Source of the DNA: Streptomyces minutiscleroticus
GTDB taxonomy: Bacteria > Actinomycetota > Actinomycetes > Streptomycetales > Streptomycetaceae
DNA: 64,000 bases
Reading direction: 5' to 3'
NCBI RefSeq assembly: GCF_014650875.1
Contig: NZ_BMVU01000004.1
Location: forward strand, 246,384-310,383
Under the pieces are notes generated by a model. That model saw only the letters and a list, made by a program, of their open reading frames with translations. It was not told the origin of the DNA and searched no databases. Both the position numbers and the translations under genes were made by a program. Every line of letters starts with the position of its first letter. Position 1 is the stretch's first letter. Of the stretch, positions 57,618 through 63,386 are shown piece after piece.

Positions 57618-59387
<1,770 letters not shown>

Positions 59388-59406
59388 TCACCGACCCGGT
59401 CCTTCG

Positions 59407-59469
59407 TTGTCACTCTCACCTTCAGAGTGCTAACGCCAATAGTTAGCACTCGCCCCCCGAGAGTGCAAG
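59407..59469 (-). promoter_or_regulatory. groEL2 promoter with two tandem CIRCE (HrcA) operators
   Basis: CIRCE 2: TTAGCACTC-N9-GAGTGCAAG (59443-59469). CIRCE 1: TTGTCACTC-N9-GAGTGCTAA (59407-59433). Each has one perfect half and one degenerate half. On the minus strand TTGCAC (59463-59468), 17 bases, TAACTA (59440-59445) is the likely promoter, lying within CIRCE 2, with CIRCE 1 just downstream. Confidence 0.9.
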
Positions 59470-59684
59470 GTGCGCCCGCGGGGCGGGCCCGCCGGAAGGC
59501 GGCTGCCGGGTGACGGGTGGACGCAGGGCGCGCCCGCGGAGCGGGCTCGTCGAGGGACGGTGACCGGTGACGGGCGGGCGCCGTGCGGCGGTGCGCGACC
59601 GGCGCACGGGGCGCACGTCTCCGGCGCGCCGGAGACTCCCGCGCCCCGCTCCGCCGCGGCCGGCACGCACTCGCGCCCGGACAG

Positions 59685-59722
59685 CCCGAAGGGCCCGTAC
59701 CAGGAGGTACGAGCCCTTCGGG
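59685..59722 (-). terminator. Hairpin terminator of the cold-shock gene
   Basis: 17-base arms 59685-59701 and 59706-59722 (CCCGAAGGGCCCGTACC side) with one mismatch and a 4-base loop, 28 bases past the stop codon. No U-tract. Confidence 0.8.
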
Positions 59723-59750
59723 AAGAACGTCGCTGCAGTCAGTCGGCGCT

Positions 59751-59954
59751 TCAGCCGGCCACGCGGACCATGTCCGCCTGCGGTCCCTTCTGGCCCTGCG
59801 AGATCTCGAACTCGACCCGCTGGCCTTCCTCCAGGGTGCGGTAGCCGTCCATCTGGATCGCGCTGTAGTGGACGAATACATCCGCACCACCGTCGACCGC
59901 GATGAAGCCGTACCCCTTCTCCGCGTTGAACCACTTGACGGTGCCCTGAGCCAT
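59751..59954 (-). CDS. CspA-type cold-shock protein
   Basis: 67 aa canonical cold-shock domain: [70 protein letters not shown]1 is KGYGFI and RNP2 is VFVHYS. It is a nucleic-acid chaperone. A Shine-Dalgarno (GGGGAG) precedes ATG 59954, and the long, partly AT-rich leader is typical of this class. Confidence 0.95.
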
Positions 59955-60310
59955 GCCTAACTCCCCTATTACTGGCCCTTGCACAGGACCGCACTTCGCG
60001 GACCCGGGTCAGACCTCACCCCCCAACGGTTGGGGGTGTGCGCCGGAACGCGTCGACCGCGGCTGAATGTATCTGTCCAACTGCCCTCTGCAACAGGTCA
60101 ATCGGACGAGAATTCTGAGTACGCTCGATCCGGAATATGCGGAGAATTCGCGCAATGTCAGGGCAAGTCGGGCCACACGAAAGGCACTTAAGACGCAAAA
60201 GCCCTACACACTTTGGCTACTTCCTGTCGGGCTCCGGGCGGGAACTGATGTGCGCGGGACAGGAAAGAAGAAGCAGGTTCCCCAACTGTACCGCGCTCAA
60301 CCATGCAGAA
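59955..60310 (-). promoter_or_regulatory. Long leader/promoter region of the cold-shock gene
   Basis: No ORF is credible. On the minus strand TTGCAG, 16 bases, TACATT (about 60067-60094) is a possible promoter. It would give a leader of around 110 bases with a perfect hairpin CCCCCAAC-G-GTTGGGGG (60020-60036). The 60070-60300 part is unusually AT-rich for this genome. Confidence 0.45.
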
Positions 60311-60386: not shown

Positions 60387-60665
60387 TCAGCAGCCGCCGG
60401 CCACGGCGGGGATGATCGACACGCCCGCGCCGTCCGGCGTGGCGGTCTCCAGTCCCTGCTCGAAGCGGACGTCGTCGTCGTTCACGTAGACGTTGACGAA
60501 GCGGCGCAGCTTGCCCTGGTCGTCCAGGACGCGGGCGGCGATGCCCGTGTGGTTCTTCTCCAGGTCGGCGATGACGTCGGCGAGGGTCGCGCCCTCGGCG
60601 CTCACCTCGGCCTGTCCGCCGGTGTAGGTGCGCAGGATGGTGGGGATGCGGACGGTGACGCTCAT
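60387..60665 (-). CDS. MoaD/ThiS-family sulfur carrier (CysO-like) ending Gly-Gly-Cys
   Basis: 92 aa ubiquitin-like beta-grasp protein: SVTVRIPTILRTYTGGQAEV, LADVIADLEKNHTGIAARVLDD, RRFVNVYVNDDDVRF and the terminal SIIPAVAGGC. Actinobacterial CysO ends in PAVAGG and, as a thiocarboxylate, gives sulfur for cysteine synthesis. Here the active Gly-Gly is followed by one extra Cys (G90-G91-C92), so adenylation would need that residue removed. It follows thrC by 94 bases on the same strand. Confidence 0.9.
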   Translation of the reverse strand: MSVTVRIPTILRTYTGGQAEVSAEGATLADVIADLEKNHTGIAARVLDDQGKLRRFVNVYVNDDDVRFEQGLETATPDGAGVSIIPAVAGGC

Positions 60666-60759: not shown

Positions 60760-62067
60760 TCACGCGAGGCCGGCCTCTCGGAAGGAGTCCAGGTTCGGGC
60801 GGATCGTCGCGGTCAGGCCCGTGCCCGCCACCGCGTCGAGGGTCTTCAGGCCGTCGCCGGTGTTCAGCACGACGGTGGTGAGGGAGGGGTCGAGGACGCC
60901 GGCCTCGATCAGCTTCTTCGTCACGCCGACCGTCACGCCGCCCGCCGTCTCGGCGAAGATGCCCTCGGTCCGGGCGAGCAGCCTGATGGCGTCGACGATC
61001 TGCCCGTCGTCCACGTCCTCCACCGCGCCGCCGGTGCGCCGGGCGATGTCGAGCACGTACGGCCCGTCCGCCGGGTTGCCGATGGCCAGGGACTTGGCGA
61101 TGGTGTCCGGCTTCTGCGGCCGCACGACGTCGTGGCCCGCCTTGTAGGCGGTGGACACCGGGGAGCAGCCCTCGGCCTGGGCGCCGAAGATCTTGTACGG
61201 CCTGTCCTCGACCAGGCCGAGCTCGATCAGCTCCCGCAGACCCTTGTCGATCTTGGTGAGCTGGGAGCCCGAGGCGATCGGGACGACCAGCTGGTCGGGC
61301 AGCCGCCAGCCGAGCTGCTCGCAGATCTCGTACGCCAGGGTCTTGGAGCCCTCGGCGTAGTACGGCCGCAGGTTGACGTTGACGAAGCCCCAGCCCTCGC
61401 CCGCCGGGTCGCCGATGAGCTCGGAGCAGAAGCGGTTGACGTCGTCGTAGTTGCCCTCGATGCCGACGAGGTCGCCGCCGTAGACGGCGGCCATGACGAT
61501 CTTGCCCTGCTCCAGGTCGTGCGGGATGAAGACGCAGGAGCGGAAGCCCGCGCGGGCGGCGGCCGCGCCGACGGCGCCGGCGAGGTTGCCCGTGGAGGAG
61601 CAGGACAGGGTGGTGAAGCCGAAGGCGCGGGCGGCCTCCAGCGCCTGCGCGACGACGCGGTCCTTGAAGGAGTGCGTCGGGTTGCCGGAGTCGTCCTTCA
61701 CGTACAGGCCGCCGGTGACGCCCAGCTCGCGGGCGAGGTTGTCGGCCTTGACCAGCCGGGTCCAGCCGGGGTTGATGTTCGGCTTGTCCGCCACGTCGGC
61801 GGGGACGGGCAGCAGCGGCGCGTAGCGCCAGATGTTCGAGGGGCCCGCCTCGATCCGCTTGCGCAGTTCCTCGGCGTCGTGGCCGGAGAAGTCGTAAGCG
61901 ATCTCCAGCGGGCCGAAACACTCCTCGCAGGCGAAGACCGGGCCGAGCGGGACGCGGTGGCCGCACTCGCGGCAGGACAGCGCGGTGGCGGGGCCGAGGT
62001 CGACGGTGTTCCCGCCGTTCGCGGCGTTCCCGGAGTTCGTGGTGCTTGCAACGGTCTGCACAGCCAT
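60760..62067 (-). CDS. thrC: Threonine synthase
   Basis: 435 aa PLP enzyme converting O-phosphohomoserine to threonine. The N-terminal zinc-ribbon-like segment has CxxC-x11-CxxC (C32, C35, C47, C50), the PLP lysine is in NPTHSFKDRVV (K135), and the phosphate loop is TLSCSSTGNLAGAVGAAAARAG. ATG 62067 is chosen because it gives MAVQTVAS; two upstream in-frame ATGs lie in the riboswitch's 3' strand. Expression is probably controlled by the S-box-like RNA upstream. Confidence 0.95.
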   Translation of the reverse strand: MAVQTVASTTNSGNAANGGNTVDLGPATALSCRECGHRVPLGPVFACEECFGPLEIAYDFSGHDAEELRKRIEAGPSNIWRYAPLLPVPADVADKPNINPGWTRLVKADNLARELGVTGGLYVKDDSGNPTHSFKDRVVAQALEAARAFGFTTLSCSSTGNLAGAVGAAAARAGFRSCVFIPHDLEQGKIVMAAVYGGDLVGIEGNYDDVNRFCSELIGDPAGEGWGFVNVNLRPYYAEGSKTLAYEICEQLGWRLPDQLVVPIASGSQLTKIDKGLRELIELGLVEDRPYKIFGAQAEGCSPVSTAYKAGHDVVRPQKPDTIAKSLAIGNPADGPYVLDIARRTGGAVEDVDDGQIVDAIRLLARTEGIFAETAGGVTVGVTKKLIEAGVLDPSLTTVVLNTGDGLKTLDAVAGTGLTATIRPNLDSFREAGLA

Positions 62068-62086
62068 GGAGGCGAGGCCCTTTCTC

Positions 62087-62242
62087 CTCATCTTCCTCAC
62101 GACGCACCTCGCCGTGAGACGGATTTGGCACCTTCCCTAGCCGGGAGCCTCGCGGCGGCCGATCGGCACTGATCGGTACGAGAACCGGCTGGAGGGTTGC
62201 CGGGGCTTCAACGGGCCGTGTCCCTCTGCCCCTCTGGATGAG
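62087..62242 (-). promoter_or_regulatory. SAM-I (S-box)-like riboswitch in the thrC leader
   Basis: On the mRNA strand the core reads GAGGGACACGGCCCGTTGAA, then GCCCCGGCAACC, and later GGTGCCAAATCC, in S-box order. P1 closes by CTCATC (62242-62237) pairing with GATGAG (62092-62087). The 3' P1 strand runs straight into GAGAAAGG, the region of the thrC ribosome site, so control may act on translation. Recognised from consensus by eye; a covariance search would confirm the class. Confidence 0.85.
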
Positions 62243-62441
62243 CGGTATTCGGTTGTCACCGGGCGTCTCGGCGACGCCCCGATCTGATTTAACGTGCAAC
62301 GACCCTCGACATGCGATGGTCACCAACGTTGTTCAAGACTGTAACCGAAGGCCTGGATCGTTGAGGAAGACGTCCGAACCGCGAGATGGAGATCGCGCCG
62401 AAGCGTTTTGCACCCACAGGCAGACCGAGGGAGAGCCGCAC

Positions 62442-63386
62442 GTGCTGGAAGAGGTCGAGCGCTGGCTGAGCACGCGCTCCTGGTCCGTTGCCGACCGCCC
62501 GTTGCACCGGCTCGTCGCCGCCAAGCGCGGTACGGGCTCGTCGGTGAGCGTGGTACTGCCCGCGCTCAACGAGGAGGCGACGGTCGGCGACATCGTCACG
62601 GTCGTCCGTGAGGAACTGGTGGAGCGCGCGCCGCTCGTCGACGAGATCGTCGTGATCGACTCGGGCTCCACCGACCGCACGGGCGAGGTCGCGCGGGCCG
62701 CGGGCGCACGGGTCGTGCACCGCGACGCCATACTGCCGCGCATCCCCGCCGTCCCCGGCAAGGGCGAGGTGCTCTGGCGCTCGCTGCTGGCCGCGCGCGG
62801 GGACATCATCTGTTTCGTCGACGCCGACCTGAAGGAGTTCTCCGCGGACTTCGTCACCGGCATCGTCGGCCCGCTGCTCACCGAGCCGGGCGTCGACCTG
62901 GTCAAGGCGATGTACGACCGGCCGCTGGGCTCCGCCGCAGGCCAGGGCGGGCGGGTCACCGAGCTGATGGCCAGACCGCTGCTGAACATGCACTGGCCCC
63001 GGCTGGCCGGCTTCGTCCAGCCGCTGGGCGGCGAGTACGCGGCCCGCCGCTCACTGCTGGAGCGGCTGCCCTTCCCCGTGGGGTACGGCGTGGAGCTGGG
63101 GCTGCTGGTGGACGCCCTGCACACCGTGGGCCTGGACGCGCTCGCCCAGGTCGACGTCGGGGAGCGCAAGCACCGCCACCAGGACGGGCAGGCGCTGGGC
63201 CGCATGGCCGCCACGATCTACCGCACCGCGCAGGTCCGGCTCGCCCGCGGCCATCTGGTGCGGCCGGTGCTCACGCAGTTCGAGCGGGGCGAGAACGGCT
63301 TCGAGCCGCGCGTCCACAGTGTCGACACCGAGGAGCGGCCGCCGATGATCAGCGTCGCCGAGTACGCCGAGCGCGAGGCGGCGTAG
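62442..63386 (+). CDS. gpgS: Glucosyl-3-phosphoglycerate synthase
   Basis: 314 aa GT-A glycosyltransferase. SVVLPALNEEATVGDIV begins the nucleotide-sugar domain, IDSGSTDRTGEVARAAGARVVHRDAILP and ICFVDADLKEF (DxD, metal) follow, and QPLGGEYAARRSLLERLPFPVGYGVELGLLVD is the acceptor side. It makes glucosyl-3-phosphoglycerate for glucosylglycerate or methylglucose lipopolysaccharide synthesis. GTG 62442 has GGGAGAG upstream. It is divergent from thrC and followed by otsA, both acting on NDP-glucose. Confidence 0.9.
   Translation: MLEEVERWLSTRSWSVADRPLHRLVAAKRGTGSSVSVVLPALNEEATVGDIVTVVREELVERAPLVDEIVVIDSGSTDRTGEVARAAGARVVHRDAILPRIPAVPGKGEVLWRSLLAARGDIICFVDADLKEFSADFVTGIVGPLLTEPGVDLVKAMYDRPLGSAAGQGGRVTELMARPLLNMHWPRLAGFVQPLGGEYAARRSLLERLPFPVGYGVELGLLVDALHTVGLDALAQVDVGERKHRHQDGQALGRMAATIYRTAQVRLARGHLVRPVLTQFERGENGFEPRVHSVDTEERPPMISVAEYAEREAA

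Follow-up and report, generated by a model that had tools for sequence, protein, structure and literature searches.

In a 64,000-nucleotide stretch of the Streptomyces minutiscleroticus genome (the window), a SAM-I riboswitch precedes a gene that is likely metM, encoding a homocysteine synthase of the O-phosphohomoserine route, and the riboswitch would very probably cut translation of this gene when SAM is plentiful. In the mechanism that we propose, SAM binding would close P1 on GAUGAG and hide or crowd the ribosome site. Without SAM, P1 would open and MetM would be made; in Streptomyces, this opening would be helped by a competing UGAGG/CCUCG hairpin, whose loop would display a ribosome site rich in purines. 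MetM would combine sulfur from thiocarboxylated MetO with O-phosphohomoserine to give homocysteine, and SAM would set the share of phosphohomoserine going to methionine versus threonine. The features concerned, all on the minus strand, are as follows.

62338 to 62343, minus strand: TACAGT, predicted -10 promoter hexamer (conservation of [CT]TACAGT)
62243 to 62256, minus strand: conserved 5' flank ACAACCGAATACCG, adjoining P1 (AACYNNA count against control windows)
62085 to 62244, minus strand: SAM-I riboswitch aptamer RF00162 with a long P3 insert (full-length covariance match)
62237 to 62242, minus strand: P1 5' strand, CUCAUC (Rfam alignment, letters checked)
62087 to 62092, minus strand: P1 3' strand, GAUGAG, overlapping the ribosome-site candidate GAGGAG (Rfam alignment, letters checked)
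62073 to 62090, minus strand: hairpin that excludes P1, with UGAGG at 62090 to 62086, loop AGAAAGGG at 62085 to 62078, and CCUCG at 62077 to 62073 (letters checked)
62078 to 62084, minus strand: predicted ribosome-site candidate GAAAGGG, rich in purines and 10 nt away from the AUG (sequence, conserved in Streptomyces loci)
60760 to 62067, minus strand: threonine-synthase-like PLP enzyme, likely metM, 435 amino acids from the ATG at 62067, stop codon included (family models, motifs, neighbors)
60387 to 60665, minus strand: ThiS-type sulfur-carrier gene ending in GGC, likely metO, stop codon included (PF02597, 62.9 bits)

The leader contains a full-length SAM-I aptamer

An Rfam covariance scan of the 64-kb window gave a single match above cutoff, to RF00162 (SAM-I), on the minus strand from 62244 to 62085 (75.1 bits, E value of 8.5e-16; the gathering score is 44.4 bits). 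The match spans positions 1 to 108 of the 108 in the model, from P1 to P4, and the genome gave no second match to RF00162. The SAM-I/S-box assignment made in the first-pass annotation was therefore upheld by the Infernal search, which placed the element over the SAM-I threshold along its full length. P1 consists of six Watson-Crick pairs, CUCAUC (62242 to 62237) with GAUGAG (62092 to 62087), whose outer limits are exactly the ends, 62087 and 62242, that had been given for the element, and the two outer pairs of the model are mismatched. The Rfam match ends 17 nt from the ATG at 62067. The P1 3' strand had also been described as abutting the ribosome site, and in fact it both abuts and overlaps purine-rich sequence, GAUGAG being followed directly by GAGAAAGGG, 10 nt, and the AUG at 62067. 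While the element matches the SAM-I family from P1 to P4, it is distinguished by the six standard pairs of P1, a long P3 insert, a platform of only a few nucleotides, and a ribosome site in or beside P1; the platform known from Bacillus is a terminator. A comparison of the leader with plasmid records gave four partial matches, none of which reached 80% coverage.

The gene behind the riboswitch most likely encodes MetM

The product of the riboswitch gene passes the thrC model TIGR00260 (260.7 bits; cutoff, 167.1 bits), so the label of threonine synthase is understandable, and among the best 120 of 7998 relatives those with a database name are called threonine synthase. The closest named relatives are from Streptomyces. 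Against PDB 2d1f, a chain named threonine synthase, the protein scored 153 bits, and its own best chain scored 180 bits. The genome has another ThrC (locus L003), which is 37% identical to the riboswitch gene product and is encoded between homoserine dehydrogenase and homoserine kinase (hom-thrC-thrB), as judged from open reading frames and family models. This ThrC scored 321.3 bits on the thrC model (cutoff, 167.1 bits) and 494 bits against 2d1f. The hom and thrB genes flank the ThrC at L003 instead of the riboswitch gene; no SAM-I element was found on the hom-thrC-thrB locus.

For comparisons among relatives, we collected 239 loci with the aptamer core, of which 206 were anchored by the pattern GATGAG (the S. 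minutiscleroticus locus is present three times among them); the 33 unanchored loci were left out of the sulfur-carrier, Shine-Dalgarno (SD), motif, flank, RNAalifold, and hairpin counts. Four PLP-fold motifs were chosen for this analysis from the ThrC at L003, namely, NPTGSFKD, STGNT, EGQKT, and EPAS. None of these is present in the window protein when the two proteins are aligned; it has NPTHSFKD, STGNL, EGSKT, and ETAGG in their place. In the 197 distinct relatives with 380 or more amino acids, the corresponding motifs were NPTHSFKD (196 relatives), STGNL (197), EGSKT (196), and ETAGG (197), whereas NPTGSFKD, EGQKT, and EPAS occurred in none and STGNT occurred in one. Every one of the 201 relatives with 380 or more amino acids (the S. 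minutiscleroticus locus being counted three times) has an N-terminal CxxC...CxxC; the alignment revealed no CxxC-CxxC near the N terminus of the ThrC at L003. The window gene resembles ThrC (TIGR00260; PDB 2d1f and 2zsj) in its PLP fold and likely substrate but differs in four motifs, in the additional CxxC-CxxC, and in its neighbors. Two in-frame starts upstream of the ATG at 62067 (GTG at 62100 and ATG at 62091) were considered and rejected, as the indels of relatives up to that ATG are not all multiples of three.

Downstream of the likely metM and on the same strand is the gene for the ThiS-type protein, whose start and stop codons were checked. The available sequence downstream of metM reaches 450 nt or more at 147 distinct loci, and at 124 of these a small open reading frame with a GG tail lies no more than 700 nt downstream of metM; one of the 124 (L081, with a GGDSA tail) is probably spurious. 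The other 23 have no sulfur carrier nearby, but a homologue was found at another site in each of the 23 genomes. Small ThiS-like proteins also give sulfur to PLP enzymes in the CysO-CysM system of Mycobacterium and the HcyS-MetY system of Wolinella, in which the acceptors are O-phosphoserine or O-acetylhomoserine. The window pair is like these systems in that a ThiS-like protein is the putative sulfur donor of a PLP enzyme, but it differs in its ThrC-like enzyme and in its acceptor, which is likely O-phosphohomoserine. Beyond the sulfur carrier, the minus strand of the window contains a cold-shock protein gene and groEL (57618 to 59984). Elsewhere in the genome (C1:526209-526325, plus strand; locus L271, 1501 to 1617), there is a SAM-IV riboswitch (RF00634, 108.8 bits), and the open reading frame behind it matches the SufS family of cysteine desulfurases at 246.7 bits, under the curated cutoff; that this SufS-like product could feed sulfur to MetO is a guess.

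Judged from its sequence and surroundings, the riboswitch gene most likely encodes MetM, the homocysteine-making enzyme of methionine synthesis, and not the main threonine synthase. The first-pass annotation had named it threonine synthase. The model score over the TIGR00260 cutoff and the database names speak for such an assignment, but there is a separate ThrC between hom and thrB, the motifs differ, the neighbor is a sulfur carrier, and the riboswitch is tied to the likely metM and not to the ThrC of the hom cluster; we therefore regard it as very improbable indeed that this gene is the cell's threonine synthase and that SAM switches threonine synthesis. A bifunctional enzyme, making homocysteine plus some threonine with both trimmed by the switch, would accord with excerpts of PMC12172450 on a relative from Microcystis (51.6% identity to S. 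albulus MetM), which reportedly had threonine synthase and deaminase activity and did not fully act as MetM in the cells of that study. The threonine synthase activity of that relative calls for caution about side activities. The genome has a dedicated ThrC, however, and the metM motif set is nearly invariant, and we consider bifunctionality unlikely. With the gene read as metM, the apparent oddity of a SAM sensor in front of a threonine gene probably arises because the gene name is misleading.

P1 and a predicted competing hairpin share the ribosome-site region

A start codon was present in 205 anchored leaders, and in 203 of these it lies 14 to 27 nt after the beginning of the P1 3' strand. 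After identical sequences were dropped, the best anti-SD match overlapped P1 by at least 2 nt in 153 of 183 distinct leaders (96 of 107 from Streptomyces and 57 of 76 from other genera). In Streptomyces, this best match lies mostly 15 to 16 nt from the AUG, which makes the site actually used by the ribosome unsure. In short platforms such as that of L191 (GAUGAG followed by GAGUUCCGC and AUG), the only clear ribosome site is AGGAG, which is partly within P1. The longer platform of Streptomyces adds GAAAGGG and CCUCGCC.

All 23 distinct Streptomyces platforms contain a P1-excluding hairpin of the form UGAGG-(AGAAAGGG)-CCUCG, or a similar one with the same minimum score, versus 4.1 expected from 200 shuffles (maximum, 11). 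In other genera, such a P1-excluding hairpin was found in 37 of 67 distinct platforms versus 8.8 expected from shuffles (maximum, 16). The pairing is kept with changed letters in L136 (AUGAGCC/GGCUUGU) and L143 (AGCGAGA/UUUCGCU). Two other partners for CCUCGCC, the GGCGAGG of P4 and the P3 insert, were also considered and were rejected by eye, in that relatives whose P4 reads GGCGAAAU keep CCUCGCC or CCUCCGCC.

Calculated folding energies favored P1 without ligand, too (median, -6.8 kcal/mol), and in the folding model the stretch from P1 to the AUG did not change between the two states (0.60 versus 0.60 in Streptomyces). The SD sequence opened upon breakage of P1 in 183 of 183 leaders, but P1 contains half of the SD window, so that this result partly follows from the design of the calculation and is not counted as evidence. 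RNAalifold preferred the hairpin over P1 in 59 Streptomyces leaders and preferred P1 in 76 other leaders. The folding model does not prove the OFF sense, although a switch that is OFF with SAM is the likely sign. Since the riboswitch gene is likely a methionine gene, an ordinary OFF switch explains the finding; in the SAM-bound leader, such a switch would be expected to show P1 closure with GAUGAGGAG protected.

For a riboswitch in front of thrC, the first-pass annotation had offered an ON sense or some other wiring; a third option, a likely methionine gene with the usual OFF sense, fits better. If SAM were to turn the gene ON, the ribosome site would be freed through disruption of the UGAGG/CCUCG hairpin by P1, and this would agree with a hairpin that excludes P1 and takes up GAGG and with its preference over P1 by RNAalifold in the 59 Streptomyces leaders. 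But GAAAGGG lies in the loop of that hairpin and not in its stem, the short platforms of other families have their sole ribosome site partly inside P1, and sulfur would presumably be wasted on homocysteine at high SAM, so we judge the ON sense to be very improbable. Control that is mainly transcriptional, for example, by Rho after blocked translation or at Rho sites, is rather unlikely. Untranslated RNA in high-GC actinomycetes is prone to Rho, and the folding model leaves ribosome access in Streptomyces unsettled, both of which favor such control; on the other hand, no intrinsic terminator match was found in 62000 to 62460, and the P1 3' strand, beginning 14 to 27 nt before the start codon in 203 of 205 leaders, leaves little room. 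Rho-type control may act together with the preferred mechanism, translational OFF switching through P1. The first-pass annotation had also invoked competition for phosphohomoserine. The idea is fair for this lineage, since phosphohomoserine would be a shared substrate of MetM and ThrC.

A conserved strand lies ahead of P1

In 134 of 201 loci, the sequence AACYNNA was found in the 18 nt ahead of P1, versus 3 of 800 control windows further upstream; because the loci are related, this is not a count of independent events. In 118 of the 134, its first A was 12 nt from P1. The conserved strand extends to ACAACYNNAUA, which precedes P1 in 134 of 201 leaders. We looked for pairing of this flank with the leader and rejected it, as no partner was conserved: the commonest 6-bp pairing, CUUCAU with AUGAGG, was found in a minority of loci (28 of 82 from other genera and 14 of 119 from Streptomyces), and RNAalifold gave P1 only in the 76 other leaders and weak, inconsistent flank partners in the 59 Streptomyces leaders. 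Further upstream, [CT]TACAGT was present no more than 130 nt before P1 in 150 of 200 loci. We take TACAGT to be a -10 hexamer by its consensus; a promoter scan found no sigma-70-type site there. The divergent gene at 62442 to 63386 (plus strand) encodes a family-2 glycosyltransferase (PF00535) and starts about 200 bases from the aptamer, and the promoters of both genes thus share the gap.

The riboswitch accompanies metM across the class

The occurrence of the element is more than chance: of 121 genomes of the genus, all have metM and 119 have RF00162; in the two genomes in which the riboswitch was missed, metM lies at a contig edge (G001:C148:1-810 and G073:C299:27-1292). In a class sample of 296 genomes, in which metM was called at an E value of ≤1e-90, 191 had both, 2 had metM only, 11 had RF00162 only, and 92 had neither. 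Fisher tests assume an independence that related genomes lack, and we therefore rely on the counts alone. Tallied by genus, the riboswitch was found in 84 of 114 and metM in 77 of 114. Two of the 11 riboswitch-only genomes are contig-edge cases: in L170 the start of metM follows the riboswitch, and in L180 a 50-base match lies at the contig end.

The aptamer core adjoins metM in 30 of 30 loci of the genus (best-scoring loci) and in 80 of 80 named Streptomyces loci (best 80 metM matches). At the class level, with loci taken from the stronger of the listed matches, a script found adjacency in 114 of 120, and the other six (G341, G392, G218, G368, G359, and G384) are adjacent by coordinates. In genomes without metM, the genes that follow riboswitches on the plus strand of the locus are one of the metB type (L171), three that resemble metF (L178), sulfite/nitrite reductase (L177), and, weakly, methionine synthase (L176), and two for an ABC permease (L183) and an ABC binding protein (L174). 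The riboswitch is on the minus strand of the locus in L172, L173, L175, L179, L180, L184, and L185, and those of L172 and L175 precede ABC-transporter ATPase genes. This list of targets leaves out L173, L179, L184, L185, and L187. Several SAM-I elements in metM-less genomes thus precede sulfur or methionine genes. Two Streptomyces genomes have a second SAM-I element (L263, 301 to 442, and L262, 2601 to 2742; 66.1 and 68.5 bits, respectively) on a locus without metM; the next long open reading frame on L263 encodes an IclR-type regulator, and a similar one is present on L262.

Most bacteria branch to methionine via acylated homoserine. MetX, called at an E value of <1e-70 (a threshold chosen for this analysis, with some of the genomes being drafts), was found in 178 of the 296 genomes: 86 had metM and MetX, 107 had metM without MetX, 92 had MetX without metM, and 11 had neither. 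None of the 296 genomes passed the cutoff of TIGR01392 itself; the MetX of S. minutiscleroticus passes NF047917. MetA (PF04204) was found in six of the 296 genomes, one of which (G160) is among the 107 with metM and without MetX. At the thresholds used, 106 of the 193 metM genomes therefore had neither MetX nor MetA. In S. minutiscleroticus, metY lies beside metX (contig C30; L268, 2861 to 5355), and no SAM-I element was found on that locus. As read from sequence, the genome likely holds two routes to homocysteine, metM and metY-metX, and MetM need not be the sole one.

Relation to published work and implications

Excerpts of PMC12172450 credit Hasebe et al. 2024 (doi 10.1128/aem.01247-24) with identifying MetM, a novel homocysteine synthase, in strains of Streptomyces, place a SAM riboswitch upstream of S. 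albulus metM, and name S. albulus metO as the parallel of a sulfur-carrier gene. By that description, the window arrangement is like S. albulus metM-metO in having a ThrC homologue in Streptomyces, a SAM riboswitch upstream, and a sulfur-carrier partner, with no difference known from those excerpts. Our analysis indicates that the arrangement is most likely the published one, metM under a SAM riboswitch, here extended across a class of genomes. Excerpts of a 2005 survey of Actinobacteria (PMC1262725) report that the regions ahead of methionine and threonine operons yielded no conserved RNA structure, and those of PMC12452182 and PMC3766115 do not mention the riboswitch-metM arrangement. We recognized no description of the metM expression platform in the open-license literature searched; the overlap of P1 with the SD sequence, the P1-excluding hairpin, and the ACAACYNNAUA strand may be new details.

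A broader proposal, to which we give somewhat less than an even chance, is that SAM-I in actinomycetes would be mainly a dedicated governor of the phosphohomoserine-to-methionine route. It would be a compact switch acting on translation, with P1 competing for the same few bases as a hairpin that shows the ribosome site, ACAACYNNAUA would be an undescribed third part, and SAM would set the threonine/methionine split via MetM alone. The compact platform and the conserved 5' strand are readily testable at the bench. Reading the gene as metM removes a false paradox, as a methionine sensor on a "threonine" gene is then not odd. Because the riboswitch and metM match closely across the class (191 genomes with both and 2 and 11 with one alone), the riboswitch offers a practical flag by which many "threonine synthases" could be relabeled likely homocysteine synthases, and the pair represents a likely methionine route for the actinomycetes in which neither MetX nor MetA was detected.
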